Below, piece after piece: positions 33,302 through 50,497 of a stretch of 64,000 nucleotides of DNA; within the stretch, counting starts at the first letter, position 1, and each line of letters starts with the position of its first letter. Below the pieces are notes generated by a model. The model was not told where the DNA came from. It did no database searches and worked only from the letters and a program-made list of their open reading frames with translations. The stretch is from Frondihabitans sp. PAMC 28766. Its GTDB lineage: Bacteria > Actinomycetota > Actinomycetes > Actinomycetales > Microbacteriaceae. Both the position numbers and the translations under genes were made by a program. Location of the stretch: NCBI RefSeq assembly GCF_001577365.1, contig NZ_CP014513.1:744001-808000 (forward strand). The letters run 5' to 3'.

Positions 33302-33339
33302 CTCCACCTAAATGGTCAGGCTCCACCTGGAGATACTCT
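33302..33339 (+). promoter_or_regulatory. CTCCACCY-box promoter 1 (pseudo-kinase operon)
   Basis: Direct repeats CTCCACCT at 33302-33309 and 33321-33328 lie 19 bp apart. The second is followed after 5 bases by TACTCT (33334-33339) as a -10. Four other promoters in the 44-49 kb region have the same box-to--10 arrangement. It should drive the 33417-36672 genes. Confidence 0.6.
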
Positions 33340-33385: not shown

Positions 33386-33400
33386 GGCCGAAAGTCGGCC
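33386..33400 (+). promoter_or_regulatory. leader hairpin before the pseudo-kinase start
   Basis: GGCCG-AAAGT-CGGCC forms a 5-bp stem and 5-nt loop ending 3 bases before AGGAGG. Equivalent hairpins (loop AAACG) precede the genes starting at 44434 and 46368. Confidence 0.55.
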
Positions 33401-33416
33401 CGCAGGAGGAATCGAA

Positions 33417-34616
33417 ATGTCAACGACGTTCCGCGTCGCCAGAGCCCGGGGCATTGGCCACCGAGGGGCCCAGCTGACGGTCACCGACATCGTCCGACCG
33501 ATCGGCATGGTGTCATACGTAGCGATCATCGCGGGTTCCCTCGCGACTGTCCACGCCTCGAGCTTGGTCTGGATGTTCTTCACCCCGGTGGCCCTTTTGT
33601 CTCTAGGGAGCATCCTTCCGCTCCGACATGTCCCTGAAGGGGTCCGCCTGGCAGGATTCGTCGTGTGGGCGGTCCTCGCTGCCGTCCTTTTCTCGATCAA
33701 CGGCGGGACGTACGCTGAGGGTTTCGTTTTCCTGGCCGCAGCCGGAGCCGGCCAACTACTCAGCTCGAGCCGAGACGCCGGAATCGTCGCAGCCACGGCA
33801 GCCGCCATGAATGCGGTCGGCATCATCGTGATCCACGGCGGTGAATACATCGGCTGGCCGTGGTGGCTGGGCCTCGGGGCGGGCGCAGGTATCTACGTCG
33901 GTATCGCCCGGCGGCTCTCCGTCGAGAAACGTTCCGACACGGCGGCTCTTGCGACCGAGAGAAAACGCGCCGAAGAGGCGGAGACGGCTCGGGCTGCCGT
34001 CCTAGAACGCAACGCTGTGGCGCTCGACATCAACGACACCTTGAGCGAGTCGCTGTCGTCGGTTTCGATCCAACTCGATCTCGTTGACGCCCTGCAGTCG
34101 ACGGACGCCGCGAACTCGCGGGCTTCCAACGCCCTCCGCAACGCCCGCTCTCTGACTCGTGCGGGAGTTGTCGCGACCCGCCGGGCGGTGGACGCTCTCA
34201 AGACTCAATCGCTCCCCGCGCACACAAGCATCGAGTCGATCGCCCGCGCTCATCGAGCCGTTTTCGACGTCATTGGTGAACCGGCGGGACTGCCGGTGCC
34301 GACTGAGCAGGTTTTGCTTAGGGCTGTCGCCGAGAGCCTTTCCGATGCGGCCTTGTTCGCACCAGCCGCCTGGGTGCAAATCTCACTTGATCTGACCGAT
34401 CCGTCATGGGCGGAGGTCGCAATCGTCAACGGCCCGTCGATCGAGGGCCACGACGCACGCGTCACCGGACTAGTCGACGGTCCCGCCGTCAACACGCTCG
34501 GCCTCCAAATGGTCCAAGAACGCGCCCGCCTCCTCGGGGGCTCCCTTGAGGCCGGCCCGACCCTGGACGATGCGGCCAATCCCGGGTGGGCCGTCCACGT
34601 CAGACTGCCTCGATGA
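33417..34616 (+). CDS. histidine-kinase-like membrane protein without phospho-acceptor His
   Basis: The ATG at 33417 after AGGAGG gives 399 aa. Residues about 25-165 form a multi-helix membrane domain with the conserved GWPWWLGLGAG segment, a coiled coil follows (about 168-200), then a DHp-like and an ATPase-like domain. Where the canonical paralogues read EIHDVLGHSLS, this reads DINDTLSESLS: the His is Asn206. The N-box (QESLTNAHRHAPG in paralogues) is AESLSDAALFAPA, losing the Asn (Asp310). The C-terminal GLQMVQERARLLGG box is kept. It cannot autophosphorylate in the usual way and may act as a partner or antagonist of true kinases. It is coupled to the FUSC gene by ATGA. Confidence 0.85.
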   Translation: MSTTFRVARARGIGHRGAQLTVTDIVRPIGMVSYVAIIAGSLATVHASSLVWMFFTPVALLSLGSILPLRHVPEGVRLAGFVVWAVLAAVLFSINGGTYAEGFVFLAAAGAGQLLSSSRDAGIVAATAAAMNAVGIIVIHGGEYIGWPWWLGLGAGAGIYVGIARRLSVEKRSDTAALATERKRAEEAETARAAVLERNAVALDINDTLSESLSSVSIQLDLVDALQSTDAANSRASNALRNARSLTRAGVVATRRAVDALKTQSLPAHTSIESIARAHRAVFDVIGEPAGLPVPTEQVLLRAVAESLSDAALFAPAAWVQISLDLTDPSWAEVAIVNGPSIEGHDARVTGLVDGPAVNTLGLQMVQERARLLGGSLEAGPTLDDAANPGWAVHVRLPR

Positions 34617-35707
34617 CAACCCATCCTTCGGCTGACGACGGTTCAACCCCAAAGGGTGGGCGTCCCCGTTTCCGGGCAACGGAGAACAACGTCCCTCTCG
34701 TCGTGACGGGCCTCGTTCTGCCCGGCTTCGTGCTCTCTGTGACGCCATGGGGCGGATTCGGGGAACTGCTCTTCGTCGGCACGATCCCGGCCCTGATAGG
34801 TCTGATGCACGGACGTCGGGCCGCCATCGTGGCGCCTGCGGCGACCACTGTTCTTGTCGCGATCCTTGTCGCGGCCGGATCGACACCGATCGTCGCAGGC
34901 GTCGTCATGGGTTTTGTCGGCCTCGGCGTCGGTGCCTCAAGCCTTCGCGGCTGGCATACCGTGGCGGTCGTAGTGACCTCATGGCCATCCGTGTTGCTCG
35001 TCTCACCGCCGACACCCGTGTTCGATCACGGCTGGCTCGATTCGTCGACCGCCGTCATCGTCCTGGCGGCAGCAGCCACCGCGATCGGTGGCGCGTGGAC
35101 TCTCGCCGTCACGACGGCCTTCCTACCGAATCCTCCTCAAGGCGAATTCATCGCACAACCCCGGGCGACGGCCGTGACCTACGGGACAAGCCTTGCGGTT
35201 CTGCTCGGAGGCGCGGCCTTCGTGGCGACGATGTGGGCACAAGGCACGATGGCCGGGTGGATCCTTCTCACGGTGCTCGTGGTTGCTCGGCCTGGTTATG
35301 CGGAAACGCGCCACCGGGCCGTGTCCCGGTCGGTCGGCACCTTGGCGGGCGGAATCGGAGCAGGAATTGTCGGTCTCTTTGTGCCGATTTCCCTCGTCGT
35401 GACCCTGTTGGGCGTCGCATGTCTCGGTTTCGCCGTCATCCTGCAGTTGAAGAAGTCCAACTACGCCTTGTACTCCATCGCGCTCACTGGCGCGATCGTC
35501 CTCCTTAACTCATCTGGCGGCCGTCTGATCGACACGGACATCCAACGCGTCAGCTTCACGCTCGCTGGTGCCGTCCTGGCCGGAGTTCTCGTGGTCCTCC
35601 TTCAACTCCTTCTAACCCAGGTCGGTCGTCGGGTGGAGAAGAACACCTCCACCCAGCGTCGAGCCGGCATCCAGAAGTCCACCCGGAATACGTCAGACGG
35701 CTCATGA
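34613..35707 (+). CDS. FUSC family (fusaric-acid-resistance-like) membrane protein
   Basis: The ATG at 34613 overlaps the pseudo-kinase stop and gives 364 aa. About 10 hydrophobic segments occur in two blocks. The C-terminal block has YAETRHRAVSRSVGTLAGGIGAGIVG, typical of FUSC_2 proteins, which are linked to aromatic-acid efflux and envelope stress. Its last bases overlap the hydrolase start (ATGA), so three genes are coupled. Confidence 0.8.
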   Translation: MTTHPSADDGSTPKGGRPRFRATENNVPLVVTGLVLPGFVLSVTPWGGFGELLFVGTIPALIGLMHGRRAAIVAPAATTVLVAILVAAGSTPIVAGVVMGFVGLGVGASSLRGWHTVAVVVTSWPSVLLVSPPTPVFDHGWLDSSTAVIVLAAAATAIGGAWTLAVTTAFLPNPPQGEFIAQPRATAVTYGTSLAVLLGGAAFVATMWAQGTMAGWILLTVLVVARPGYAETRHRAVSRSVGTLAGGIGAGIVGLFVPISLVVTLLGVACLGFAVILQLKKSNYALYSIALTGAIVLLNSSGGRLIDTDIQRVSFTLAGAVLAGVLVVLLQLLLTQVGRRVEKNTSTQRRAGIQKSTRNTSDGS

Positions 35708-36672
35708 CTGGCCTTCAGACGACTCATACCTTCGGTGTCATGAAGCAGATCTTGAACCCCTCGTCCACTAGCGGCTCCAAGCGACCCGCCATCTTCACGA
35801 TCGTTGGAGCAAGCGTGGCGGCACTCGGCCTCGCTCTCGCCGGAACGGTCGTCGCCGCCGCCGGCAGTGCTACCGCGGCACCTGCCTCAGTTGCCGCGAA
35901 GACCCCTGGCGTCGTGAAGCAACTCGAAGCGGCCACCCCGAAAGGCAGCAGTAAACCGACGGTGGTGCTCGTCCATGGTGCGTGGGCAGACACCTCCAGC
36001 TGGGACGGAGAGGTCACCTATCTGCAGGACGCCGGCTACCCCGTGCGCGCCATCGCAAACCCGGTCGAGAACCTCACCACCGACTCGGAATACGTCAAGG
36101 ACTTCCTCGACTCGATCAAGGGACCCATCGTCCTGGTGGGCCATTCGTACGGCGGTTCCGTCATCACGAACGCGGCCTACGGCGACAAAGAAGTCAAAGC
36201 GCTCGTCTACGTCGACGCGGCAGCGCCCGCTACCGGCGAGACGAACGGGTCGCTCAGTGGCTCTGACTCGATCCTCAGCAAAGACCCCGCCTCGACGCTC
36301 TTCACGTCCGTACCCGAGCCCGGAGCACCCGCCGGAGTGGACGATATCTACCTCAATGAGCCGATCTTCGTGAACTACTTCGGAGCGGACCTTCCCAAAG
36401 GCCAGGCGGAACAGCTCTGGGCCACTCAGCGCAGCGCCTCGACCGCAGCGTTCAACACCCCCTCCAAGTACGAGGCGTGGAAGACCATCCCGTCGTGGTT
36501 CTTCATCTCTACCGGTGACAAAATCATCACCCCCACCTCCGAAGAGGCCATGGCCAAGCGTGCGCACTCGACAGTCACCCTGTTTCACGGCGGGTCACAC
36601 CTGACGCTCATTTCCCACCCCGCGGCCGTCACCGCAGTCATCGCCTCGGCAATCAAAGCCACCTCGCACTGA
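35704..36672 (+). CDS. secreted alpha/beta hydrolase
   Basis: The protein has 322 aa from the coupled ATG at 35704, with an alternative ATG at 35740. A hydrophobic signal (FTIVGASVAALGLALAGTVVAAAG, about 31-54) precedes an Ala-rich cleavage region. The catalytic parts are VVLVHGAWADTSSW, nucleophile elbow VLVGHSYGGSVI, acid near STGDKI and His in GGSHLTLI. These match the EstC/salicylate-esterase-like hydrolases. Export suggests action on an extracellular ester. Confidence 0.85.
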   Translation: MTGLQTTHTFGVMKQILNPSSTSGSKRPAIFTIVGASVAALGLALAGTVVAAAGSATAAPASVAAKTPGVVKQLEAATPKGSSKPTVVLVHGAWADTSSWDGEVTYLQDAGYPVRAIANPVENLTTDSEYVKDFLDSIKGPIVLVGHSYGGSVITNAAYGDKEVKALVYVDAAAPATGETNGSLSGSDSILSKDPASTLFTSVPEPGAPAGVDDIYLNEPIFVNYFGADLPKGQAEQLWATQRSASTAAFNTPSKYEAWKTIPSWFFISTGDKIITPTSEEAMAKRAHSTVTLFHGGSHLTLISHPAAVTAVIASAIKATSH

Positions 36673-36925
36673 TCGAGACCCATAGCCAACTCTCTTGGGC
36701 TCAACCCGCCTTCCGAGAGTCAACCTCCAGGGCGCCGGCAATCCTCCACGTCAGCGCTCTTCGACAGAGATAGCCGGAATCCGCTGCGAGAACCGAGACA
36801 GGCGCCCCGCGTTTTCGTCTCCTGCACAGCCGCAACCTCGACACGGCCGACCGACGCGTCACCCAATCGGCCTCCGAACACGCATGTCCTCACCGAATAA
36901 CACTTCGAGAGAATCGAATAAAACC

Positions 36926-37981
36926 ATGACCATCGCAACCGCTCAGAAGTCACGACACGTGGCTTCGCTTGTGAATGGCGAGAACGTTAACGACAACGAG
37001 CTCGGACGCATCACCACGGTGACCGCCGACAGCTTCCCTATCCTCCAGGGAATGTCGATCAAACGCCTCGTCCTTGAACCCGGCAGCTTCCGGGAACCGC
37101 ACTGGCACACCAATGCCGACGAGATCGCCTATTGCCTAAGCGGGACCCTGCTCGTCACCATCCTCGACAACGCATCCGCATACTCCAGCTTCACCATCGC
37201 CGAAGGCCAGATGTTCCACGTCGACTCCGGGATGCTCCACCACATCGAGAACACCGGCAGCGACGTCGGCGAACTCGTCATCGCGTTCAACAACGCCGCC
37301 CCGGCTGAATTCTCGATGCACGCAGCCTTCGGAGCCATGACCGACGCCGTTCTGGGGAACGCCTACGGCCTGCCTGCCGCCGACTTCGAACCTCTGGTCC
37401 GTGACACGACATCGGAAAGAATTCTGCAGCGACCGGACAACGCACCCATCCCTGACACGGCAGGACACCCGAACCCCCACAAGTTCGACCTTGGAGCGCA
37501 AACTCCGCCCCTGGACTACCCATACGCCAGCGCCCAGGTGGCGCGAAACCAGTTCTGGCCAGCCCTGAAAAACCTGTCGATGTACTCCATCGAGGTCGAG
37601 GAGGACGGCATGCGTGAACCGCACTGGCACCCACAGACATCCGAACTCGGCTACGTCCATAAGGGCCGTGCGCGGATGACCATCCTCGATCCTGACGGGT
37701 CGACAGACACCTACCTCCTCGAACCGGGCGACGTGTACTTCGTTCCTCGCGCATACCCGCACCAGATCGAAGTGATCGGCGACGACGAAATCCACTTCCT
37801 CATCTTCTTCGATCAGCCTTACCCCGGCGACATCGGATACCGAGCCGCGGGCAGCGCCATTTCCCGTCCGATCCTCGCGTCGGTGTTCAACGTCGAGGAG
37901 GAAGTGCTGCCGCATCTGCCCTTCACCGCGGTCGACCCGCTGCTGGTCAGCAAGGTCAACTCCACCGACCCCGTCGCCTGA
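36926..37981 (+). CDS. bicupin, oxalate-decarboxylase-like
   Basis: The ATG at 36926 gives 351 aa; an upstream ATG at 36884 is possible. Two cupin domains each carry a metal site: REPHWHTNADEIAYCLSG with a later His in MLHHIENT, and REPHWHPQTSELGYVHKG with PHQIEV. Both have the HxH, Glu and His ligands of Mn-dependent oxalate decarboxylase/oxidase. No signal peptide is seen. It is followed 8 bp later by a DUF1275 gene. Oxalate is the best guess at substrate. Confidence 0.85.
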   Translation: MTIATAQKSRHVASLVNGENVNDNELGRITTVTADSFPILQGMSIKRLVLEPGSFREPHWHTNADEIAYCLSGTLLVTILDNASAYSSFTIAEGQMFHVDSGMLHHIENTGSDVGELVIAFNNAAPAEFSMHAAFGAMTDAVLGNAYGLPAADFEPLVRDTTSERILQRPDNAPIPDTAGHPNPHKFDLGAQTPPLDYPYASAQVARNQFWPALKNLSMYSIEVEEDGMREPHWHPQTSELGYVHKGRARMTILDPDGSTDTYLLEPGDVYFVPRAYPHQIEVIGDDEIHFLIFFDQPYPGDIGYRAAGSAISRPILASVFNVEEEVLPHLPFTAVDPLLVSKVNSTDPVA

Positions 37982-37989
37982 GTGTCACT

Positions 37990-38760
37990 GTGACCGACTC
38001 CCTGCGCCGAAATCATGCCCTCGAGGCGGCGAGACCGCTCGCCGTCCCACCGGCGCAGGTAGTCGCCGTCGCCGCCCCTGACCGCAAAATGGTCGGCGCC
38101 GTCCTTCTCCTGTCCTTGAGCGCCGGTGCCACCGATGCCTTCGCTTTCCTCTCGCTCGGCGGAATCTTCACGGCGAACATGACGGGCAACCTGATCCTGA
38201 TCGGCCTCGTGCAACGCCCCATGTTCATGCACACTCTGGTGAGTGCAGGAGTAAGCGTTCTCCTGTTCGTGGCCGGTCTCTTCGCTGCATTCTGGAAGAC
38301 TTCCGCAGCGCGGTCGAAGCCGCGGATCACCAGCCACCTCGTTCACGTCCTCGCGGGCACGACATTGCTTCAGCTGACCGTGTTCCTCGGCTGGGTAACA
38401 GAGCACGGGAGGACCGGATTCGGTCTCGAGTGCGTTCTCATCGGACTCTCGGCGGTGGCCATGGCCTTTCAGACGGTCCTCGGTAAGAAGCTCTTTGGAA
38501 GCCTGGGCATGTCGACCACCTTCGTCACCGGAACCATCACCGCCGTCGTCGAAGACGTCATCGACCACCACCGGGGCGGTCGCGTACTCCGCACCTTCAG
38601 CGTCGTTCTACTCTGCGCGGGGGCATTCGCCAATGCCTTGGTGATCGAGCTCGCGCCCGCGCTCGGGGGTCTGCTTCCGCTGCTCATCGTCACAACCGCA
38701 CTCGGTCTTGTGCTCCGCGCCGAGGCGAAAACGACCGCTCCGGGAGGGAGCCAGCCATGA
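37990..38760 (+). CDS. DUF1275 (YoaK-like) membrane protein
   Basis: A GTG start 8 bp after the cupin gene gives 256 aa with about 6-7 hydrophobic segments. The family signature is LSAGATDAFAFLSLGGIFTANMTGNLILIG and the later FVTGTITAVVED. The function of the family is unknown; members are often near transporters or stress genes. Its end overlaps the MFS start (ATGA). Confidence 0.85.
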   Translation: MTDSLRRNHALEAARPLAVPPAQVVAVAAPDRKMVGAVLLLSLSAGATDAFAFLSLGGIFTANMTGNLILIGLVQRPMFMHTLVSAGVSVLLFVAGLFAAFWKTSAARSKPRITSHLVHVLAGTTLLQLTVFLGWVTEHGRTGFGLECVLIGLSAVAMAFQTVLGKKLFGSLGMSTTFVTGTITAVVEDVIDHHRGGRVLRTFSVVLLCAGAFANALVIELAPALGGLLPLLIVTTALGLVLRAEAKTTAPGGSQP

Positions 38761-40004
38761 CCGACCCCACAGTCGCCACCCGGGCCCGGGACGGTCATTT
38801 CCCGGCCTTCCAGGTCCCCAACTTCCGACGATTCGTACTGGGCCAGAGCGTCAGCCTCGTCGGAACTTGGACCGAGACCGTCGCCCAAGCGCTCCTCGTC
38901 CTTCAGCTCACCGACTCTGGAGTCCTCCTTGGATTGGCGACTGCGGCACGCTACCTCCCCGTCCTTCTTCTGACCCCATATGCCGGCGTCGTCGTCGATC
39001 GGCACGACAAACGCCGGCTTCTCATCGTGACGCAGACCGGACTGGCAGCCCTCTCCCTCCTGCTCGGCATCCTGGTGCTCACCCACACAGTCACGCTCTG
39101 GTGGATCCTCGCGGTGGCCCTTGGATTCGGCACGCTCACTGCCCTCGCCAATCCCGCCCGACAGGCCTTCATCCCGGAAATAGTCGGCCAGCCCCTAGTT
39201 CGAAACGCAGTCACCCTCAACAGCACGTTCGTGAACGTGGGACGAGCGGTAGGGCCAATCGTTGCCGCAATCCTGGTGGCGACAGTCGGCATCGGGTGGT
39301 GCTTCCTCCTCAACGCCGCCAGTTTCACCGTTGTCATCGCCGCCCTCCTGACGATGGCCGTCTCGCAACTCCATCCGGGCAAAACGGTCAAGAAGGTGCG
39401 CGGCCAGCTCGTCTCCGGGCTGCGATATGCACGGAACGTTCCCGAGATCATCGGTCCGTTGCTGATGATGGCGCTCATCGGAACATTCACCTACGAATTC
39501 GAGGTCAGCCTGCCCCTCCTCGCGCACCTCACACTCCATGGCACGTCCCAGACCTACAGCTTCCTGATCGGCTCATTCGGGTTCGGTTCCGTCGTGGGAG
39601 GGTTCTTTTGCATCCGCTATCCGGGTACTGGGTTACCAAGACTCATCCGGGCCGCCGCCGCCTACGCCGCCGGCATGATCGCCCTGTCGCTCACGACCAC
39701 GATCATCATCGCGGTACCGGTCCTATTCCTGATCGGCATGGCCAGCATCACGTTCATCACAACGGGAAACAGCACGATCCAACTCGCCTCCGCTCCCGAG
39801 TTCCGAGGTCGCGTCACGGCTCTCTGGAGCACGGCCTTCATCGGGTCGACTCCCATCGGATCTATCATCATCGGGTCCATCGGAGGAGCTACTCCCAGAG
39901 TTGCTCTCGCCGTGGGTGGGGCAGCCTGCGTAGCCGCGGCCCTGGTCGGCATGAACGCGCTGCGAAATCACCCCGCCCCCGATTCTCCCCCCGGCCCGGT
40001 GTGA
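38757..40004 (+). CDS. MFS exporter, MFS_3 (EntS-like) type
   Basis: The protein has 415 aa and about 12 hydrophobic segments. It begins FQVPNFRRFVLGQSVSLVGTWTETVAQALLVLQLTDSG, the MFS_3 signature shared with siderophore and macrolide exporters. Loop motif TPYAGVVVDRHDKRRLLI is intact. It is the last gene of the cupin-DUF1275-MFS unit. The substrate is unknown. Confidence 0.87.
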   Translation: MTDPTVATRARDGHFPAFQVPNFRRFVLGQSVSLVGTWTETVAQALLVLQLTDSGVLLGLATAARYLPVLLLTPYAGVVVDRHDKRRLLIVTQTGLAALSLLLGILVLTHTVTLWWILAVALGFGTLTALANPARQAFIPEIVGQPLVRNAVTLNSTFVNVGRAVGPIVAAILVATVGIGWCFLLNAASFTVVIAALLTMAVSQLHPGKTVKKVRGQLVSGLRYARNVPEIIGPLLMMALIGTFTYEFEVSLPLLAHLTLHGTSQTYSFLIGSFGFGSVVGGFFCIRYPGTGLPRLIRAAAAYAAGMIALSLTTTIIIAVPVLFLIGMASITFITTGNSTIQLASAPEFRGRVTALWSTAFIGSTPIGSIIIGSIGGATPRVALAVGGAACVAAALVGMNALRNHPAPDSPPGPV

Positions 40005-40232
40005 CGTCGCATTCTACGGGGCTCACGGCAGGCAACGGGAGTGGCCCGGTCGAGAGCCGCCCGTCTTGGCTGAGACCAAGAGCTGGAGGGGGTGCCGTCA
40101 GGAAGGATCGGCTAACTGCGCCGCGCCGCCCTCCGACAGTTGACGGTCACACCCGGTTGCGACGTTCGCCCACGTCGAGGCTGGCAAAGTTGCAGAAGCC
40201 CTCGCGAATCGACCGCTCCTAGCGGCACCAGG

Positions 40233-40745
40233 TCATGCGCGTTCGGTTTGTTTGCGCGCAGTCCGAATCCATCCGGCCAGACCGATGCCGATGACCAACG
40301 TGGCCAGAAGTTCAACGATGACATCACGCCACACGTTTCTGGCAAGAGCGTCCGCTTCGAAATGGCTGGCGAGTACGGCCTGCGACGGGCGTTCTGGGTC
40401 GAACAAGAGGCTCATTCGCTGATTCACCTGATAGGCGCCCTTCTTGGCCGTGGGGTACTTGTCAAGGTCCACGATGTAGTCCACATGGTCGTCAGTTAGT
40501 CGCACCACCGGCGCGAACGCGTATTCGTTCCCCAAATTGCCAACAGTCCAATGCTTAACTTTAATGACCACCGCGCTGTGAACGTGTCCGGACTCCTGCA
40601 ATTCCGTAGTTAGACGCCACATCGGTACCTCGTGAGCGAGATTGGCTCCAGCGATGAGCCCGGAGAACAGCCCCCCGACAACGGCGGCGATCGAGACAGC
40701 CATGATGGCCGTCCAGACGGATCTTCTTGGCGCAGGTCGACTCAC
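40233..40745 (-). CDS. two-helix membrane protein of unknown function
   Basis: The protein has 170 aa. One hydrophobic helix lies at about 10-32 (AIMAVSIAAVVGGLFSGLIA) and one near the C-terminus (VIVELLATLVIGIGLAGWI), flanking an extracellular-type beta-rich domain (VPMWRLTTELQESG, VIKVKHW). The plan resembles DUF3592-like proteins. No partner gene is evident. Confidence 0.65.
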   Translation of the reverse strand: MSRPAPRRSVWTAIMAVSIAAVVGGLFSGLIAGANLAHEVPMWRLTTELQESGHVHSAVVIKVKHWTVGNLGNEYAFAPVVRLTDDHVDYIVDLDKYPTAKKGAYQVNQRMSLLFDPERPSQAVLASHFEADALARNVWRDVIVELLATLVIGIGLAGWIRTARKQTERA

Positions 40746-41307
40746 TTCGTTCCCGACGATCTGGCGAATCGCACCCGTTGGTCACCCTTTAAAGTCGGCG
40801 TGCCAGCAATGACCTTGCCAACCGCGCCCGGAACGGCAGGGGCGTCGGCCCTGCGGGCAAACTGGCTTCGGTGCGAGCGGCCCCACGGATCCACGCGCAC
40901 GGTGAAGCTCCCAGAGGACTTACCCGAGAACCACGGCAGCGCGCGATCAGTCATGGAACACGCAGGCGTATCCGGACTCGCACGTCGGCTGACGCAGGAC
41001 GAGACGGCGGCTGAGAACGGGCACGACGGGGCGCAACTTGTCGACCTACGCATGGGCACTCCTACTGGGTGGCGGGACGACCGAGCGCCCGATCCCTTCC
41101 GTAAACCTTGTGAGTACGCAAGCCTCAGTGGGCGGGTGGACGTGCGGCGGTTCTCCGTTTCTGAACTTTTAGGTTCAGTTTACTTTAGACAGTAACGCAC
41201 CGATTTCAAATCAATAATTCGCGGGGCGAAGCTGGCGCTCCGGCGCCATGAGCGAGAAGCGAACTGAGCCGACGACTCCTCTGTCTGTTGCGAGTTCAGA
41301 GCGGATC
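40746..41307. other. region without a convincing gene
   Basis: About 560 bases with overlapping open frames on both strands. A 105-codon minus-strand frame ending at 40742 has low-complexity composition and no family match I recognise. An AT-richer segment with a terminator-like hairpin lies at 41161-41184. Confidence 0.4.
41161..41184 (+). terminator. weak terminator-like hairpin
   Basis: CTGAAC and GTTCAG form a 6-bp stem (loop TTTTAG) followed by TTTACTTT. It is unusually AT-rich for this genome. No gene clearly ends just upstream. Confidence 0.35.
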
Positions 41308-41805
41308 TCAGCTGGTGCGTTGACGATCGGCGAAGGCCCGCACCTTCATTCGGTTGCCGCACGTCGCCATAGAACACCACTTCGCCGTCCCGGGGCGGCT
41401 CCGGTCAAGAAGGAAAAGATTGCAGTCGGGATTGGCACAGGCGCGTAGCCGGCCTGGAAGTTCTTCGGTGACGCGCGACCATGCCATCACGGCGCGGGCG
41501 GCGAGGAGTAGCTCATCAGGAGCCTGAATGTCCCAGGTCAGCCTTCCGTCGGCGACCCTGGGCCGGAGTGCGGTTTTACTCAACAGCCCCTCCAGGCTGC
41601 CGCCGTCGGCGGAGGAGTCTCGGACGAGGGCGTGTAATCCGACGCGCGCCGCTCGAAGACATTCCAACTCCGACGGTGATCCTGTGCCGCCGAAGCCGAC
41701 GACCAGTGCGGCGCCGTCGTGCCCTGCCAGCTTCTCCATCGGAGTTCCATCGACTACCGGGGCGCTGTTCAACACGGCCAGTAATAAGTCTTCGTCGTGG
41801 ACCAT
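41308..41805 (-). CDS. CGNR zinc-finger (ABATE-domain) regulator
   Basis: The protein has 165 aa. The C-terminal zinc finger reads LRACANPDCNLFLLDRSRPG and KWCSMATCGNRMKVRAF, with four Cys and the CGNR signature. The N-terminal part is a shortened ABATE/stress-type domain. Such proteins are putative transcription factors. It is divergent from a dehalogenase-like gene with an 89-bp gap and probably regulates it. Confidence 0.9.
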   Translation of the reverse strand: MVHDEDLLLAVLNSAPVVDGTPMEKLAGHDGAALVVGFGGTGSPSELECLRAARVGLHALVRDSSADGGSLEGLLSKTALRPRVADGRLTWDIQAPDELLLAARAVMAWSRVTEELPGRLRACANPDCNLFLLDRSRPGTAKWCSMATCGNRMKVRAFADRQRTS

Positions 41806-41894
41806 TCGGTTCCTTGCTCTTCGGGCACACCCTTGGCGACTCGTACGCGTGCTACGGTCATCCTAACCAGTAAAGCAACTTTAAGGAGTTAGCA

Positions 41895-42755
41895 ATGAGT
41901 GTCGTCCATCACCGCACCGTCTCGGTCGACGGCCTGGAGGTGTTCTACCGAGAGGCTGGGCCAGGCGACGCGCCTGTACTTCTCCTCCTCCACGGCTACC
42001 CGACGAGTTCCCACATGTTCCGGCACCTGATCCCTGCACTCGCCGAACGCTACCGGGTGATCGCACCCGACCACATCGGGTTCGGCCGGTCGTCGGCGCC
42101 ATCAGTCGATGAATTCGAGTACACCTTCGCGGCACTCACCGACGTGACCCTTAGGTTCCTCGACGCGGTCGGCGTCGAGAAGTACACCATCTACACCCAG
42201 GACTATGGCGCGCCGATCGGCTGGCGGCTCGCACTGGAGAACCCGGACGCAGTCGTCGGCGTCATCTCACAGAGCGGCAACGCCTATGAAGACGGTTTCG
42301 TCGAGGACTTCTGGGCACCGATCTGGGCGTACGGCGCGAACCCGAGCCCCGAGAACGAGTTGGCGCTCCGGCCCGCTCTCGAAAGGGAGGCGGTTGAATG
42401 GCAGTACAAGCACGGCGTGCCGGACGTCGCGAGGGTCGATCCCGATGCTTGGGAGCACGACATCGCCCTGTTGCACCGACCCGGTGTCGACCGGGCGCAA
42501 CTCGCTCTCTTTGGCGACTACCACACGAATAGAGAGCTCTACCCCCGCGTGCAGGAATGGTTGCGCAGATCCCAGGTCCCCCTACTTGTGGTCTGGGGGA
42601 ACAACGACGAGATTTTCGGGCCAGCGGGCGCTCGCGCGTTCCAACGCGACGTCACTTCTGCTCGTGTGGAACTGCTCGACGGAGGCCACTTCCTTCTCGA
42701 GTCTCACCTGGACGACGTCGCGCAGATCATCCTCGACTGGTGCATTAGCTTTTGA
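41895..42755 (+). CDS. alpha/beta hydrolase, haloalkane dehalogenase/epoxide hydrolase type
   Basis: The protein has 286 aa. The HGYP motif is LLLHGYPTSSHMFRHL, the nucleophile is Asp in YTQDYGAPIG rather than Ser, the acid region is VVWGNNDEIF and the His is in GGHFLLES. An Asp nucleophile marks haloalkane dehalogenases, epoxide hydrolases and fluoroacetate dehalogenases. The start follows AAGGAG. It is cytosolic and likely under the divergent CGNR protein. Confidence 0.88.
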   Translation: MSVVHHRTVSVDGLEVFYREAGPGDAPVLLLLHGYPTSSHMFRHLIPALAERYRVIAPDHIGFGRSSAPSVDEFEYTFAALTDVTLRFLDAVGVEKYTIYTQDYGAPIGWRLALENPDAVVGVISQSGNAYEDGFVEDFWAPIWAYGANPSPENELALRPALEREAVEWQYKHGVPDVARVDPDAWEHDIALLHRPGVDRAQLALFGDYHTNRELYPRVQEWLRRSQVPLLVVWGNNDEIFGPAGARAFQRDVTSARVELLDGGHFLLESHLDDVAQIILDWCISF

Positions 42756-43225
42756 CCGCGTTTCCTCCCATGGGGTGGTGCGGGGTAGGTTCCGCGCAAC
42801 GCCCCGGCGAGAGGTGATCGACCGAACTGGACAGCAGCGAACGCCCACCACCGCCAGCCTCAGAGGATCGGCCCTCACCTTGACCGCCAGGATCCATGGC
42901 CCGGTGGCCCTTTCTGAGCAGGCCCATACCGGCAACTTTTGTCCTGGATGAACAGCAGGTTCGGGAGGAGTCCGTGGGCCTTTTGCCGTGCCCCACGTCG
43001 CGGACACGGAGCCGATGCCGCTCTGCACAGGGTGCTAATACGGGCAGAAAAGAGCGGTAGTTTCTCGACGGTGAGTACTGCCCGAGGCAGCGCCGTGCAT
43101 TGCAGCCAAAGCTCAACCTGGAACAACGAGGCGGGCCCTGTGAGGACGACAAGTGTGCGTCGAAGTTATTGGCTCAGCTTTCGGGAACGGGATCGACGCT
43201 ATTCAGGTCCGAAGGCAGGTGACGG
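42756..43225. other. intergenic region, no gene seen
   Basis: About 470 bases between a plus-strand hydrolase and a minus-strand pseudo-kinase, both ending here. Open frames on both strands overlap each other and lack ribosome sites and recognisable domains. Confidence 0.45.
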
Positions 43226-44434
43226 TCACCGTGGAAGACGGACGTGCACCGTCCAACCGGGATTGGCCACGTCGTCGAGCGTAGGCCCGAAATCCACTGA
43301 GCCGCCGAGCAGGTGAGCCCGCTCCTTCACGCCTTGAAGACCGATCGTACTGCCGGTTCGGCTGTCGACCATTGCTTCCGTGCGACCGGCTCCGTGCGAG
43401 ATCACGGGCCCAATTACGATGCGGAGGTCCACCCAGGTGGGCTCGGTGAGGTCGAGCGCAATCCTTACGGACGCTCCTGGGGCAAACAAATGCGCGTCAG
43501 TGAGGCCCTCGGCGACTGCTCGGAGCAGGGTCTGTGTGATAGTAACCGGCAGTTCAGCGGGTGAGCCAACAAGAGTGAACGGGGCCCCGTGAGCTCGGGC
43601 GAGAGATTCGATACTTATTGCCACCGGACGAGGCTGCGTCTTAAGAGCGTCGACAGCGCGTCGGCTTTCGGCGATGCCGGTGCGGGTGAGGGCGCGAGCG
43701 TGACGAAGCGCTGTCTCGGAGCGAGAGCCGGCTGCGTCCGTGATGGTAGCGGGCTGCAGTGCATCGACCAGATCGAGTTGGATTGAAGCGGACGAAAGCG
43801 ATTCGCTCAGTGCATCGTTGATGTCGCAGGCGACAGCATTTCGTTCGAGAACGGCGGCCTCGGCGCCCTCGGCGTCATCTGCTCGCTTCGTCTCGAGTCG
43901 CAAGGCGACCGTGTCGTTGCGCTTCTCAACGGAAAGGCGTCGGGCAAGACCGATATAGATTCCTCCTCCGGCTCCGAGTCCGAGCCACCAGGGCCAGCCG
44001 CGGAACTCACCGCCGTGAATGACGATGATCCCGACAGCGTTCGTGACCGCTGCCGTGAGAGCGACAATGCCGGCGTCACGGCTTGATTTGAGCAGCTGAC
44101 CAGCGCCGGCGGCGGCTAGGAATACAAAGCCTTCGGTATACGTGCCGCCGTTGATTGAGAACAAGCCGGCCGCAAGCACGGCCCATACGAGGAAGCCCGT
44201 GAGGCGGACGGATTCGGACAGGTGGCGAAGTGGGGCAAGGCTTGCAAGCGACAGCAGCGCGACCGCGGTGAACAGGCCCCAAACGAGTCCAGAGGCGTGC
44301 ATACTGACGAGCGAGCCGGAGATGATTGCGATGTACGAGACAACGCCGATTGGCCGGACGATGTCGGTAACGGTCGGCTTGGCCTTATGTTGGTCGCTAT
44401 TCCGGGCGATGACCCCCGGGAAGGTCGTTGACAC
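43226..44434 (-). CDS. second histidine-kinase-like protein without phospho-acceptor His
   Basis: A GTG at 44434 with AGGAGG 7 bases before it gives 402 aa. It is highly similar to the 33417 protein across its length (TVTDIVRPIG, LFSINGGTYTEGFVFLAAAGAGQLL, GWPWWLGLGAGGGIY). The H-box reads DINDALSESLS, again with Asn206 for His, and the N-box reads AEGLTDAHLFAPG, with Asp313 for Asn. Two copies with the same losses argue for a conserved non-kinase role, not random decay. It is transcribed from its own CTCCACCC-box promoter. Confidence 0.85.
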   Translation of the reverse strand: MSTTFPGVIARNSDQHKAKPTVTDIVRPIGVVSYIAIISGSLVSMHASGLVWGLFTAVALLSLASLAPLRHLSESVRLTGFLVWAVLAAGLFSINGGTYTEGFVFLAAAGAGQLLKSSRDAGIVALTAAVTNAVGIIVIHGGEFRGWPWWLGLGAGGGIYIGLARRLSVEKRNDTVALRLETKRADDAEGAEAAVLERNAVACDINDALSESLSSASIQLDLVDALQPATITDAAGSRSETALRHARALTRTGIAESRRAVDALKTQPRPVAISIESLARAHGAPFTLVGSPAELPVTITQTLLRAVAEGLTDAHLFAPGASVRIALDLTEPTWVDLRIVIGPVISHGAGRTEAMVDSRTGSTIGLQGVKERAHLLGGSVDFGPTLDDVANPGWTVHVRLPR

Positions 44435-44451
44435 GTTGATGCCTCCTGATA

Positions 44452-44464
44452 GCCGCGTTTCGGC
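44452..44464 (-). promoter_or_regulatory. leader hairpin before the second pseudo-kinase
   Basis: On the minus strand GCCG-AAACG-CGGC forms a small stem, 4 bases upstream of AGGAGG. It matches the leaders at 33386 and 46388. Confidence 0.5.
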
Positions 44465-44511
44465 CCTGATTCGACGATACGAATGGTGAGGGTTGGCAGC
44501 ATCGGGTTGCA

Positions 44512-44563
44512 ACCGTATTCTCGGGTGGAGCTAACTTCGCGGGTGGAGACATCCACTCCACCC
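44512..44563 (-). promoter_or_regulatory. CTCCACCC-box promoter 2 (second pseudo-kinase)
   Basis: Read on the minus strand: GGGTGGA-N9-TCCACCC (44563-44541), a further CTCCACCC (44530-44523), 5 bases, then TACGGT as -10 (44517-44512). Promoter 1 has the same doubled CTCCACCY spacing. Confidence 0.7.
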
Positions 44564-44568
44564 ACGTG

Positions 44569-45747
44569 TCAAGTGGGGATCGCGAGACGCACGATCCAGC
44601 CGCCTTCAGGCGTAGTGCGGAATTGGCACTCGCCGCCGATATCCCTGACACGCTTCTCCATACTGGCCAGGCCCATGCTGGATCCTTCCAGCTCAATGTC
44701 TGCACGGCGCGGAGCGAAGGCTGGCGCACCGTTTTCGACCTCGAGTCGGCAAGATCCCGCCGTTGAAAAGTCGAGGGTGACGGTTGCGACGGAACCCGGA
44801 GCATGGCGGTGCGCGTTTGTGAGGCTCTCTTGGGTAGCCCGAATGATGGTTTGCGACTTTTCTACGGCCATCGTCGTTGGTTGACCTATCAACATGAACG
44901 TCGCCGCGTAATCATCGGTTACTGCCTGGAGGGTGTCGGAAACGGGGAGCTGGTCTTCATTCAGGGCGTGAACCGCGCGTCTCGTTTCCCCGATGCCGGT
45001 ACGAGCGAGGTCGCGGGCTCGATGGATGGCAGCGTCGGCATCATCTGTGCGATCGTGGGCTTGGAGCACCTGGGCCATGTCGAGCTGGATGGCAATCGCG
45101 GAAAGGGAGTGACCAAGTACGTCATGGATTTCGCGAGCAATTCGGCCTCGTTCCAGCAGAGCTGCCTCGCGCGCTTCCGATGCCGCCGCTCGTTCCATCT
45201 CGAAAGCTGCCAGCTCGGCTACCTTCAGGGCATCGTTTCGCTGCCGGCGAGTGATGCCGATGTACACCGGCAGGCCGACGAGTAGCCCTAGCCACCACGG
45301 CCATGGAGTCGGATCTGCGAAGTCAGAGATGTAGTTGGCCACAGCGCACGCGACTCCATCGACGACCGCGACGAGGACGGCAAGGCGATAGGAGCTAAGG
45401 AGCTGGCCCGCTGAGGCAGCCGCCATGAACACGAAGGCAGCAGAGAAGGTGTCCGCAGGGATGGGGAAGAGTGCGGATGCGAGTATCGAGTACAGACAAA
45501 AGAGGGTGGTCTGAAGCCAGACAGGAACCGCTTCGACGTAGCGAGTGATAGTCCAGATTGCCAACAGCGCGGTTGGCACGAAGAGCAGCCAGCTGACGAA
45601 GGCAGCATCACCGTCGGGGCTCAGGATCAACTGCACTCCCACAACTAGGACGACGCACACAACGAGGAACGGTCGGAATAGACGGTCCGTATACGCCACC
45701 GCCCGGCGGCTGGCGCCGTCGGGTGGGGTAGGGCTCTGATCGTTCAT
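44569..45747 (-). CDS. canonical membrane histidine kinase, DesK/LiaS-like (orphan copy)
   Basis: The protein has 392 aa with about six membrane segments ending in WPWWLGLLVGLPVYIGI, then a coiled coil. The HisKA_3 motif is REIHDVLGHSLSAIAIQLDM (His208). The N-box is QESLTNAHRHAPG (Asn311) and the G-box is MGLASMEKRVRDIGG, so it should be active. The nearest response regulator is 4 kb away beside the paralogue at 48603, suggesting that regulator is shared. It lies 27 bp behind a CcdC-like membrane protein gene in one operon. Confidence 0.9.
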   Translation of the reverse strand: MNDQSPTPPDGASRRAVAYTDRLFRPFLVVCVVLVVGVQLILSPDGDAAFVSWLLFVPTALLAIWTITRYVEAVPVWLQTTLFCLYSILASALFPIPADTFSAAFVFMAAASAGQLLSSYRLAVLVAVVDGVACAVANYISDFADPTPWPWWLGLLVGLPVYIGITRRQRNDALKVAELAAFEMERAAASEAREAALLERGRIAREIHDVLGHSLSAIAIQLDMAQVLQAHDRTDDADAAIHRARDLARTGIGETRRAVHALNEDQLPVSDTLQAVTDDYAATFMLIGQPTTMAVEKSQTIIRATQESLTNAHRHAPGSVATVTLDFSTAGSCRLEVENGAPAFAPRRADIELEGSSMGLASMEKRVRDIGGECQFRTTPEGGWIVRLAIPT

Positions 45748-45774: not shown

Positions 45775-46368
45775 TCAGTCGCGGTGGTTGCGAATGCTAT
45801 CGAGAATGGATGAAGCGGTGCTGCCGTTGTTGTTGGCGCGGTTGCGCTGCAGGTTGTCCAGGAAGTCGGAGTGGCGGTCGGCCTCGCCGTCCTTGCCCTT
45901 GGCCCAGACGACTCGGCTGTCACCATTGACGGCCTTATAGGCGACGACAACACCCTCCATGAGAACACCCATACCGAGGCTGATCAGCAAACCGGAGGAC
46001 TCTTCGTGAGCAGCGACCGGGTCGATGGCAGCGATCGTGAGGGCGGCGGCGATCTTGATGGCGATGTTAGTGACCCAGAGCGCGACGGTGACACCGGTGT
46101 AGCGCATCCAAACGATTCCGTCCTTCTCGAACAATCTGATCGAGACTCCGCGGAGGATGCCAATGACGAAGCTGATGGCGGTTGTACCGACGAGGAAGGC
46201 GACAGCGGTAGGTGTCCAGGTGTGGGAAAGGCTGGTGAAGCCGATAACCATGATGATGGCGGGCAAGATGAGCAACTTTTTGCCCTGGGCCGGCTGCCCA
46301 GCCATACGTCGAATGAGGACGTAGGCGATCAGGGCGATGATGAGGATGAGTTCGATGGGATCTGACAT
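45775..46368 (-). CDS. CcdC/DUF1453-like membrane protein
   Basis: The ATG at 46368 gives 197 aa with four or five hydrophobic segments (LILIIALIAYVLI, LLILPAIIMVIGFTSLS, AVAFLVGTTAISFVIGIL) and a polar C-terminal tail of about 45 residues. The GQPAQGKKLLILP and RGVSIRLFEKDG segments fit CcdC/DUF1453-type proteins. It is first in an operon with the canonical kinase at 44569 and may sense envelope state for it, which is inference. Confidence 0.7.
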   Translation of the reverse strand: MSDPIELILIIALIAYVLIRRMAGQPAQGKKLLILPAIIMVIGFTSLSHTWTPTAVAFLVGTTAISFVIGILRGVSIRLFEKDGIVWMRYTGVTVALWVTNIAIKIAAALTIAAIDPVAAHEESSGLLISLGMGVLMEGVVVAYKAVNGDSRVVWAKGKDGEADRHSDFLDNLQRNRANNNGSTASSILDSIRNHRD

Positions 46369-46387
46369 TGGCTTGGTGGCTCCTGTC

Positions 46388-46402
46388 GGCCGCGTTTCGG
46401 CC
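46388..46402 (-). promoter_or_regulatory. leader hairpin before the CcdC-like gene
   Basis: On the minus strand GGCCG-AAACG-CGGCC, a 5-bp stem with 5-nt loop, lies 3 bases upstream of AGGAG. It is the same element as at 33386 and 44452. Confidence 0.55.
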
Positions 46403-46448: not shown

Positions 46449-46482
46449 ACCGTATTTTCGGGTGGAGGAAGTGCGTCCACCC
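46449..46482 (-). promoter_or_regulatory. CTCCACCC-box promoter 3 (CcdC-like/kinase operon)
   Basis: On the minus strand GGGTGGA-N9-TCCACCC (46482-46460) is followed after 5 bases by TACGGT (46454-46449). The box sits where a -35 would be, as expected for an activator-dependent promoter. Confidence 0.7.
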
Positions 46483-46487
46483 GCGGG

Positions 46488-47575
46488 TTATCGAGCCTTC
46501 TGCCTAGGTATCACGACACGGTCGGCGAATATCGTGCTGGCCGCCACAACGGGGACTGCAATGAGTGCGCCGAGGACACCTCCCAGTGCGGCGCCGCCTA
46601 AGACCGAAAGAACGATCAGTGTTCCAGATACATGGACGACTCGCGCCATTACCCGCGGGTGAATCACATAGGCCTCTAGCGGGTGGTAAATCACGAAGAA
46701 CGCGATGGCGGCGATGAATGCCACGGGCGACGTAAATAAAGCCACGGAAATGACGATGATGGCCTCGACAATCGTCCCGGCGACAGGGATGAGCCCGCCA
46801 AGGAACGCGATTGCGGTGAGTAGAACTGCGCCAGGTATATGGAATATAAGAAGCAGGATTGAGGTCAACGTTGCATTGACGGCCGCGATGAGTACTTGGC
46901 CAGCGACGTAGCGACCAACTGAATGGGTCATGTCGTCGTATACGCTTCGCGCTCCCGTTGCCCTGCTTGCCGGTACGAACTGGAAGGCGCGTTCCGTGAG
47001 ACGGGGGAGGGCCACGCTGAAATAGACGGTGAGGATGAGGACTATGACGATTCCGGAGATCCCGCTGACAACCCCTGTTCCCACCGATAACAAACCTCCC
47101 CGATGGTCTTCAGGTGGCTTGGACTCTGCAGGAACGTCTCTAGGGTTGACGTGACCCGTGATCGGGACATCGATATGTCGAGCGGTTGGAACCAGCTTTG
47201 TTTCGACAATTCCGCGATGGCCGAAGGAGCACGCCGAATCAACGCTTCGGTCTCACGTACGATCTCCGGAACCGCAACGAATCCGAAGCCAGCGACGGCG
47301 GCTGCGCCGACGATGAACACTCCGCCGACCACGGGGCCTCTCCGTATTCCGCGCCGGGCGGCGACGGTGACGAGCGGTTCGATAGCGAGCGCGAGAAAAA
47401 ACGCGATGGTCGTGTAGGTGAGAACAGTCGACAATGCTGCAACACCGCCGAGAACAACGAGTCCTGCTCCGGCTCCCAAAATGCCGAGGAAGCCGACCGT
47501 AAATGGACGGCCCGCAATGCCTATGCGTGCCTTTTCTTTGGGGCTTGCATTCGGAAGGGCTGATTGATCGGGCAT
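46488..47575 (-). pseudogene. AI-2E family transporter, one frameshift
   Basis: Two frames together encode a standard eight-helix AI-2E (TqsA/YdiK-like) permease of about 360 aa. The first runs from MPDQSALPNASPKEKARIG (ATG 47575) to SPSHLKTIG. The second runs from LLSVGTGVVSGISGIVIVLI to DRVVIPRQKAR. Adding one G to the GGGG at 47098-47101 (minus strand) restores TIGGGLLSVGTGVVSG, a normal family sequence. It may therefore be intact in the organism. Members export small molecules or act as Na+/H+ antiporters. It is divergent from the 47706 gene. Confidence 0.8.
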
Positions 47576-47626
47576 CCACTCAGCGTATGAAGGAGACTCA
47601 GGGGCTACCTGGGGCCGTCGCCCCAT

Positions 47627-47661
47627 CTGGGGTGGAGGTTTTTATCCACCCCAGATACGCC
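47627..47661 (+). promoter_or_regulatory. CTCCACCC-box promoter 4
   Basis: CTGGGGTGGA and TCCACCCCAG form a 10-bp inverted repeat with 8 bases between. TACGCC follows 4 bases after TCCACCC and can serve as -10 for the plus-strand gene at 47706. The site also lies 52 bp upstream of the divergent AI-2E gene. Confidence 0.65.
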
Positions 47662-48098: not shown

Positions 48099-48499
48099 CC
48101 AAGCTGAGCGCTCTTCCTGGACCGCTCGGGGTGAGGTCGTTGCATCCGCTTGTCTTGTCTGCTGCGCGAGTGATTCCACGCAGAGGAGCCGCGAGCCCCT
48201 TTCGAGCGCTGGCCGAGATGAGTTGATGCTGCGCTCACTCCGGAAGGTGGACGGACGGTCGTGATCGAGGACATACCTCCGTCGACTCTCAACCTGGAGG
48301 GCGAAGTGCGGGCTCGCTTCCTCTGTCCCGGGAGGCCATTACCGGGGGCGCAGGGATCCTCATCGTGGCGCCGAGGCGATGATGAGGATCCGATCGATCG
48401 GATCTTGGATCAAACTTGCTCCCCATAAACGTGGTCCGGCCCTGAACGAACCGACGATTCGAGTTCGCGCTCACCATTTCGTCACGTGGACGATCTGGC
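48099..48499. other. intergenic region, no gene seen
   Basis: About 400 bases without a supported coding frame. A GATCCGATCGATCGGATC self-complementary segment at 48388-48405 is the only notable structure; it could be a small terminator for the 47706 gene. Confidence 0.45.
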
Positions 48500-48532
48500 G
48501 GGTGGAGAGTGTTCTCCACCCATATCTACGCT
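48500..48532 (+). promoter_or_regulatory. CTCCACCC-box promoter 5 (kinase-response regulator operon)
   Basis: GGGTGGAGA and TCTCCACCC form a 9-bp inverted repeat with loop GTGT (48500-48521). After 5 bases TACGCT (48527-48532) is the -10. It should drive the kinase, response regulator and following membrane genes, implying autoregulation. Confidence 0.7.
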
Positions 48533-49802: not shown

Positions 49803-50497
49803 TCCGATTGCTCATTGCTGACGATCAGACGGCCGTCCGGCAGGCGCTTGAGGTCATGCTCGGACTAGTTGAGGATCTCGACGTGGTCGGCACGGCCGCT
49901 AACGGCCAGGAGGCAGTTGAACTGGCAGGTAAATTGCGCCCTGACGTTGTGCTCATGGACTTGAACATGCCTGTCATGGGCGGCGCCGAGGCCACTGAAC
50001 ACATCGTGGATGCAAACGACGCTATCTCGATAGTTGTGCTCACCACGTTTGAGGACGATGAGTCGATTCTTCGGGCACTCCGAGCAGGAGCCCTTGGGTA
50101 CTTGACCAAAGACGCCGATCACTTTCAGATAGCACAAGCCGTGAGAAGCGCCCATCTTGGCCAGTCGGTACTTGACCCCGAAGTCCAGACTAGGCTCTTA
50201 CGACTGGCGTCTTCCGTATCGGCCCGCGGAGGCGCAACTGGTCGCGACTCTGCCGGCAAATTGGGGCCTATTAGGACCGAGGCGTCATCGCTCCTGACCC
50301 AGCGAGAGAAGGAAATCTTGCAACTCATTGGTGCAGGTCTCAGAAACCGCGACATTGCCGACGCACTGACCATCTCCGAAGCGACGGTCAAGACCCACAT
50401 CAACAACATCTTCACCAAAGCAGACCTCCACTCACGTGCGGACGCCGTCCGATACGCGCTCACGGTAGGTGGAGATGCTCCGGAGTTCACTCGGTGA
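49799..50497 (+). CDS. NarL/LuxR-type response regulator
   Basis: The ATG at 49799 (ATGA overlap) gives 232 aa. The receiver has acidic residues IADDQ, phospho-acceptor Asp54 in VLMDLNMPVMGG, switch Thr in VVLTTFEDD and Lys in YLTKDA. The C-terminal helix-turn-helix is LTQREKEILQLIGAGLRNRDIADALTISEATVKTHINNIF. It probably binds the CTCCACCC boxes at five promoters in this window, including its own. It is the only response regulator seen for two canonical and two pseudo-kinases. Confidence 0.93.
   Translation: MIRLLIADDQTAVRQALEVMLGLVEDLDVVGTAANGQEAVELAGKLRPDVVLMDLNMPVMGGAEATEHIVDANDAISIVVLTTFEDDESILRALRAGALGYLTKDADHFQIAQAVRSAHLGQSVLDPEVQTRLLRLASSVSARGGATGRDSAGKLGPIRTEASSLLTQREKEILQLIGAGLRNRDIADALTISEATVKTHINNIFTKADLHSRADAVRYALTVGGDAPEFTR

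Follow-up and report, generated by a model that had tools for sequence, protein, structure and literature searches.

Four membrane sensor kinases of the HisKA_3 type, a group of histidine kinases also labelled HPK7/NarL-type, are encoded within 17 kb of the window analysed here (the whole stretch of 64,000 nucleotides from Frondihabitans sp. PAMC 28766, contig NZ_CP014513.1, positions 744,001 to 808,000). Two of these, designated A1 and A2, are active-type, a term used here for proteins with intact motifs as judged by sequence alone, and two, designated PK1 and PK2, are paralogues which have lost the residues for kinase and phosphatase chemistry. The interpretation we favour, to which a probability of roughly 45% was assigned, is that PK1 and PK2 are pseudo-kinases which sense at the membrane, are induced by the response regulator of the system and brake the active kinases through mixed dimers as a feedback. 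Coordinates of the genes and of the candidate regulatory elements are presented in Table 1.

Both pseudo-kinase genes are intact open reading frames (ORFs), with an ATG start at 33417 for PK1 and a GTG start at 44434 for PK2, and their products share 70% identity with each other and 33-43% with A1 and A2. The H-box, which is GRIAREIHDVLGHSL in A1 and A2, is NAVALDINDTLSESL in PK1 and NAVACDINDALSESL in PK2. The phospho-acceptor His is replaced in both by Asn206 and, counting from this position, H+4 Gly is replaced by Ser and H+5 His by Glu. The N-box NAHRHAPG of A1 and A2 reads DAALFAPA in PK1 and DAHLFAPG in PK2, with the Asn changed to Asp and the next basic and His/Tyr residues changed to Leu-Phe. 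The second glycine of the G2-box is Thr in both proteins, the first G2 glycine is Val in PK1 alone, and the G1-box Asn is gone in PK2 alone; A1 is itself slightly atypical in that one G2 glycine is Ser. Among the listed active-type homologues (the best 120 of 1616, picked by similarity to A2 and including A1 and A2) the His, the H+5 His, the N-box Glu and the N-box Asn were each found in 120/120, and the H+4 Gly in 119/120. The phosphatase residue of HisKA_3 proteins is H+5, the Q or H of a DxxxQ/H motif (PMC11502775), and positions the water (PMC5231405, PMC11502775). This motif is absent from the pseudo-kinases, with DxxxE present in PK1, PK2 and a third relative, P0003, although the H+1 Asp is retained.

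Pfam scores for HisKA_3 were 31.3 bits for PK1 and 25.8 bits for PK2, over the cut-off of 24, with P0003 just under it at 22.2. Scores for HATPase_c (cut-off 26.4) were 32.5 for A1, 14.1 for A2, 16.3 for PK2 and 13.0 for PK1, and were rejected as evidence since active-type A2 is also under the cut-off; the scores fail to separate the two groups, and therefore the residues carry the argument. A pseudo-histidine kinase is defined as a kinase-like protein without one or more kinase functions, and the His was missing in 56 of 16,025 HisKA_3 domains surveyed, or 0.3% (PMC12632262). Judged by their residues, PK1 and PK2 are strong cases of pseudo-histidine kinases under this definition.

The membrane domain and coil are preserved in the alignment of the pseudo-kinases with A1 and A2. 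An AlphaFold model of PK1, built from a 36-row alignment (mean pLDDT 82.9, pTM 0.52), consists of six membrane helices, the last of which continues into the coil, followed by a two-helix dimerisation and histidine-phosphotransfer (DHp) domain and an alpha/beta catalytic and ATP-binding (CA) domain, confidently modelled save around residues 341-360. The closest solved structures to PK1 were DesK chains, both by profile (best E 5e-20) and by fold, with a Foldseek TMq of about 0.25 over the whole chain, a value which supports histidine-kinase nature only. In DesK the positions H+5, H+8 and H+12 (numbered from His188 in the present analysis) contact DesR (PMC5231405), and of the docking positions in the DHp, H+8 Ser and H+12 Ile are kept in PK1, PK2 and P0003. 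The initial annotation had described two full-length paralogues with the same loss of the phospho-acceptor His and N-box Asn and with the membrane domain and coiled coil kept, and was accurate on each of these counts, down to the individual residues.

Comparison of PK1 with PK2 (NG86) produced a nonsynonymous divergence (dN) of 0.22 and a synonymous divergence (dS) of 1.80, and hence a dN/dS of about 0.12, a rough ratio given that dS is near saturation. By part of the protein, dN was 0.13 in the transmembrane (TM) domain, 0.19 in the coil and DHp and 0.31 in the CA domain, unlike the comparison of A1 with A2, in which the coil and DHp were the best conserved part. Differences between PK1 and PK2 at codon positions 1, 2 and 3 numbered 82, 74 and 234 of 399. 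When neutral change was simulated to match the third-position divergence, none of 500 simulations was free of stops (median 9 stops). Long-term neutral drift does not fit this pair. The dN/dS, the stop-free ORFs and the occurrence of P0003 with the same signature strongly argue that PK1 and PK2 have been maintained by selection.

P0003 is a protein of 272 residues from JGI, represented by three member sequences on three contigs. It is 56% identical to PK1 in the membrane domain and 59% in the DHp, and its pseudo-DHp, RITDTVSESLSS, has Thr in place of the His, after which the protein ends with no CA domain. As the only relative of the pseudo-kinase lineage that was found, it too is without the His. 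P0003 has SESLSS in common with PK1 and PK2, and the three proteins group on a branch with 100/100 support against 43 active-type rows (unrooted tree, with P0003 on a long branch), so that the shared SESL signature is probably older than the split of PK1 from PK2. H+5 Glu, H+40 Thr, H+28 Arg and H-34 Arg are among the residues common to all three, each found in no more than two of the 120 active-type proteins. Because P0003 keeps the TM and DHp domains without a CA domain, the sensor and dimerisation domain appears to be the retained unit. An active-type kinase, P0014, groups with A2 at 94/86 support. The longest contig carrying P0003 is 107,668 bases, as is that carrying P0014, and this equal size suggests that P0003 and P0014 share one contig.

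An operator-like palindrome, GGGTGGAG-n-CTCCACCC, was found upstream of the operon of A2 and the regulator and upstream of PK2, and half-sites lie before PK1. The window holds 12 copies of CTCCACCC against 3.2 expected, a count not reached in any of 100 shuffles. Of these, nine precede A2 (two), PK2 (three), a CcdC-like gene (one) and the alpha/beta hydrolase gene at 35740 (two) or fall in the gap between the AI-2E-like and 47679 ORFs (one); the remaining three are elsewhere, at 6921, 32464 and 60382, and the two CTCCACCT half-sites carried by PK1 are outside the 12. Across the 4.77-Mb genome the palindrome written as GGTGGAGN{3,30}CTCCACC had seven matches, two of them overlapping, compared with two for the reversed-pattern control. 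Four of the seven are at this locus (35632, 44524, 44542 and 48501), and one, at C2:63617 on genome contig C2, adjoins a fifth paralogue of the kinases. A match at C1:817109, 9 kb beyond the window, lies near two further genes, one TMEM175-like and the other for a small membrane protein similar to the product of 47679, both judged by eye (L034 512-1117, 1575-1943). The match at C1:4197505 is apparently unrelated.

A -10-like ATAC follows the half-site at equal distance in PK1, PK2 and the CcdC-like gene. The promoter pattern CTCCACCYNNNNWTMCK occurs in four places genome-wide, one of them unrelated (C1:852670), against one for the control; a looser version allowing three mismatches found one chance-like site. 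A leader element, GGCCGAAANNCGGC-n-AGGAG, was found four times genome-wide (control 0), at PK1, PK2 and two CcdC-like genes. The conserved GGCCGAAANNCGGC hairpin stands directly before the ribosome-binding site of these four genes only, and may act to control their translation. The regulator is the simplest candidate for binding the palindrome because the same palindrome precedes its own operon, both here and in the paralogous cassette on C2. This moderate evidence makes the dead kinases probable members of the regulon of the response regulator at 49799, and the regulated promoters proposed in the initial annotation fit these shared elements, as candidates recognised by sequence.

Table 1. Genes and candidate regulatory elements (window positions unless prefixed C2)
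Feature	Position	Strand	Description
PK1	33417-34616	+	Pseudo-histidine kinase: six TM helices, coil, pseudo-DHp, degenerate CA
PK2	43226-44434	-	PK1 paralogue, pseudo-histidine kinase
A1	44569-45747	-	HisKA_3 sensor kinase, active-type: His and N-box intact
A2	48603-49802	+	HisKA_3 sensor kinase, active-type
LuxR/NarL-type response regulator	49799-50497	+	Overlaps A2; Response_reg 91 bits, GerE 71 bits
TMEM175-like membrane protein	50494-51156	+	Overlaps regulator gene; PF06736, 73.8 bits
CcdC-like membrane protein (weak label)	45775-46368	-	PF07301, 17 bits, under cut-off of 24.6
FUSC_2-like membrane protein	34613-35707	+	PF13515, 48.3 bits
Operator-like palindrome GGGTGGAGAGTGTTCTCCACCC	48499-48521	+	Before A2 and regulator
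Three half-sites GGGTGGAG-n-CTCCACCC-n-CTCCACCC	44523-44563	-	Before PK2
Two direct CTCCACC half-sites, 19-nt spacing	33302-33327	+	Before PK1; second followed by -10-like ATAC
Imperfect palindrome GGGTGGA-n-CTCCACCC	46460-46483	-	Before CcdC-like gene
Palindrome GGGTGGAG-n8-CTCCACCC	35631-35654	+	Upstream of alpha/beta hydrolase at 35740, inside end of FUSC_2-like ORF
Near-palindrome GGGGTGGATAAAAACCTCCACCCC	47629-47652	-	Between divergent AI-2E-like and 47679 ORFs
Leader hairpin and ribosome-binding site GGCCGAAANNCGGC-n-AGGAG	33386-33408	+	PK1
Leader element GGCCGAAANNCGGC-n-AGGAG	44443-44465	-	PK2
Leader element GGCCGAAANNCGGC-n-AGGAG	46380-46402	-	CcdC-like gene
Leader element GGCCGAAANNCGGC-n-AGGAG	C2:63718-63740		C2 counterpart of CcdC-like gene

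These components, neighbours on the genome that share regulatory elements, may be arranged as one circuit, made up of active-type A1 and A2, the one LuxR-type regulator (49799) and the two dead kinases as accessory sensors. A1 and A2 probably phosphorylate the regulator, and the phosphorylated regulator would bind GGGTGGAG-n-CTCCACCC and raise expression of its own operon and, later, of PK1 and PK2. Since they have the membrane sensor and the dimerising DHp scaffold in common with A1 and A2, the dead kinases could then pair with these in ligand-dependent mixed dimers, which would have neither productive autophosphorylation nor phosphatase action on the dead side. The response would be damped for this reason, and the pseudo-kinases would act as a delayed negative-feedback brake which lowers net phosphorylation. 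Binding of the regulator to the site, formation of mixed dimers and the negative sign are what we infer here, the evidence for contact and for sign being indirect; a role of PK1 and PK2 as heterodimer partners or antagonists is plausible.

Several observations weigh against a brake of this kind. The patterns for operator, promoter and leader were drawn up with the sites already in view, and their rarity is therefore descriptive. The half-sites of PK1 are direct repeats (CTCCACCT) rather than a palindrome, an arrangement with four matches and four for the control, and the leader hairpins have only a small folding advantage over shuffled sequences (z -0.75 to -1.29). The CA domain is still constrained and, in PK1, mostly confidently folded, which exceeds the need of a pure TM-DHp dimer module. 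Finally, the ChrS pseudokinase of Corynebacterium glutamicum raised output, and its truncated form gave no heterodimer in two-hybrid assays (PMC9491836).

As an alternative to the brake, a pseudo-DHp could serve as a decoy, docking the response regulator, neither adding phosphate to it nor taking phosphate off, and so sequestering it from A1 and A2. The H+8 Ser and H+12 Ile of the docking face speak for such docking, but the H+5 Glu would adjoin the phospho-Asp site, and a cytosolic decoy would not need the TM domain, the part most constrained between PK1 and PK2; on balance we consider it unlikely. An equally low chance was given to a stimulatory role, in which the pseudo-kinase with a ligand of its own would activate the active kinases, as in DivL-CckA or in the transfer from HrrS to ChrA proposed for ChrS_CA-fs. 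The nearest experimental actinobacterial precedent that was found did raise output (PMC9491836), and conservation of the TM domain fits a sensor, but with the regulator also inducing the pseudo-kinase, positive feedback would result on top of autoregulation of the A2-regulator operon. A dedicated phosphatase, acting solely to dephosphorylate the regulator, would be compatible with the retained H+1 Asp and with the finding that HisKA_3 proteins can act as phosphatases without the phospho-acceptor His (PMC12632262). However, the water-positioning Q/H residue is Glu in PK1, PK2 and P0003, as against His in 120/120 of the listed active-type homologues, and because of this a canonical phosphatase role is highly unlikely.

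That PK1 and PK2 are merely functionless duplicates in decay might be suspected from the lack of PK1 and A2 matches in 397 other genomes of the family sampled, at the thresholds used, and from the visibly broken state of the C2 cassette and of the AI-2E gene beside an operator-like site. The dN/dS of about 0.12, the absence of stops against 0/500 stop-free neutral simulations, the retention of shared regulatory elements and the presence elsewhere of P0003 with the same signature make decay very improbable. Least probable of all was a role of PK1 in serving the FUSC-like transporter directly rather than the kinases, a reading based on the ATGA overlap of the two genes and the FUSC_2 score; no such gene follows PK2 among the ORFs checked, and PK1 and PK2 share elements with the kinase operons. 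Taken as a whole, the interpretation offered in the initial annotation holds as regards a selected non-kinase role, which is well supported by the divergence of PK1 and PK2, by His-less and CA-less P0003 and by the elements shared with the active-type system, while its suggestion of a phosphatase-like brake is disfavoured by the H+5 Glu of all three pseudo-kinases. Of the two observations named there as counting against it, neither was made: the single relative found for the pseudo-kinase lineage has no His, and PK1 and PK2 have not diverged neutrally.

Among known systems, ChrS_CA-fs of C. glutamicum resembles PK1 and PK2 in that it belongs to actinobacterial paralogous two-component systems and is a kinase-dead sensor which still affects signalling, and native ChrS and HrrS heterodimerise in Corynebacterium (PMC9491836). 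Unlike PK1 and PK2, it was produced in the laboratory by a frameshift in the CA domain and has a His which is present but dispensable; such a form had not yet been described naturally in corynebacteria according to that paper (PMC9491836). Pseudo-histidine kinases as such are a recognised kind (PMC12632262; DivL, RetS).

In Caulobacter, DivL is, like PK1 and PK2, a natural kinase fold; it controls another kinase and can do without its ATPase domain and phosphorylation residue, and it differs in coupling to CckA and DivK. DivL is of a different DHp family and has Tyr at the acceptor position. In the Pseudomonas RetS-GacS system, one sensor kinase-like protein controls another through hetero-oligomerisation. 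RetS is a hybrid kinase of another family and is not known to be a paralogue whose expression is induced by the regulator that it holds back. DesK of the Bacillus DesK-DesR system (HisKA_3) is an active kinase/phosphatase, whereas PK1 and PK2 are without its His and phosphatase residue. LiaF of LiaFSR is a membrane brake whose gene belongs to the regulon of the very system that it holds back, but it is not known to be a kinase homologue. What is unusual here is a natural HisKA_3 pseudo-pair beside active-type paralogues with shared operator-like and leader elements, in which residues for kinase and phosphatase action have been lost jointly, and which has a CA-less relative. No printed case of a natural His-less HisKA_3 protein with active paralogues, one regulator and shared elements was found in the one open-access library searched.

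With respect to the neighbouring genes, the CcdC-like gene lies about 28 nt upstream of A1, in the gene order CcdC-A1-PK2, and no second response regulator was found among the neighbouring ORFs run through Pfam. The overlap of the PK1 stop with the start of the FUSC_2-like gene (ATGA) hints at translational coupling of the pseudo-kinase with a transporter-like protein. A search of the literature on TMEM175 with two-component systems returned nothing useful. The AI-2E-family transporter gene at 46488-47626 (-) is present as two overlapping ORFs in different frames, a frameshift which may be real or arise from sequencing. On C2, the fifth paralogue has an intact H-box with a CcdC-like gene alongside, and is followed, as judged by eye, by an apparently similar regulator and TMEM175 gene. 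The C2 kinase ORF (C2:62385-63458 region; L004 1396-2676) passes, out of frame, into the sequence coding for the regulator, and the cassette, in which the C-terminal tail of the kinase and the N-terminus of the regulator are missing, looks broken, probably by deletion.

A search of 5.8 billion proteins with PK1 returned PK1, PK2, P0003 and P0004, a distant His-bearing kinase, and the same search with P0003 returned P0003, PK1 and PK2 and nothing further, each scoring the 7997 candidates sharing most words. The PK1 search left out A1 and A2 of the same genome, which indicates limited sensitivity, so that absence elsewhere is weak evidence and distant members may exist. In a scan of GTDB contigs with the pseudo-kinase alignment 48 stretches matched and none was confirmed. 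Among viral contigs none was confirmed of 39 stretches matched by the pseudo-kinase alignment or of 179 matched by the mixed alignment. Plasmids gave three weak matches at 51% coverage, from Streptantibioticus/Streptomyces. Relatives of PK1 were not found at E<=1e-30 in six other genomes of the genus, nor in the 397 other family genomes with PK1 at E<=1e-20 or with A2 at 1e-45. There were six matches among 395 other genomes of the order at 1e-30 and two among 383 other genomes of the class at 1e-40. These family, order and class samples were not exhaustive, with at most four candidates scored per genome and each search overlooking one of this genome's five paralogues. All ten distant homologues checked (the eight order and class matches and two GTDB loci) keep the His and N-box Asn. 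A second related kinase at E<=1e-8 within about 6 kb on each side was flagged for none of the best 80 of 554 GTDB relatives, using a filter which compared rounded start positions and a set in which many of the 80 were distant kinases. The lack of matches in the genus and family samples suggests that this lineage either gained the locus recently or is one of few in which it survives.

More tentative than the feedback brake itself is the broader proposal of a natural 'anti-kinase', a lineage which has lost its His along with the chemistry of the ATP site and the phosphatase, has its expression induced by the same regulator that it holds in check and includes in P0003 a member composed of sensor and dimerisation helices. 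If this is true, ligand-tuned mixed dimers would be a built-in, inducible feedback for the circuit, and with all of its parts within about 20 kb the locus is suited to a direct test of mixed-dimer control. Should the feedback interpretation hold, kinase paralogues would become inducible, signal-responsive modulators through the loss of their chemistry.

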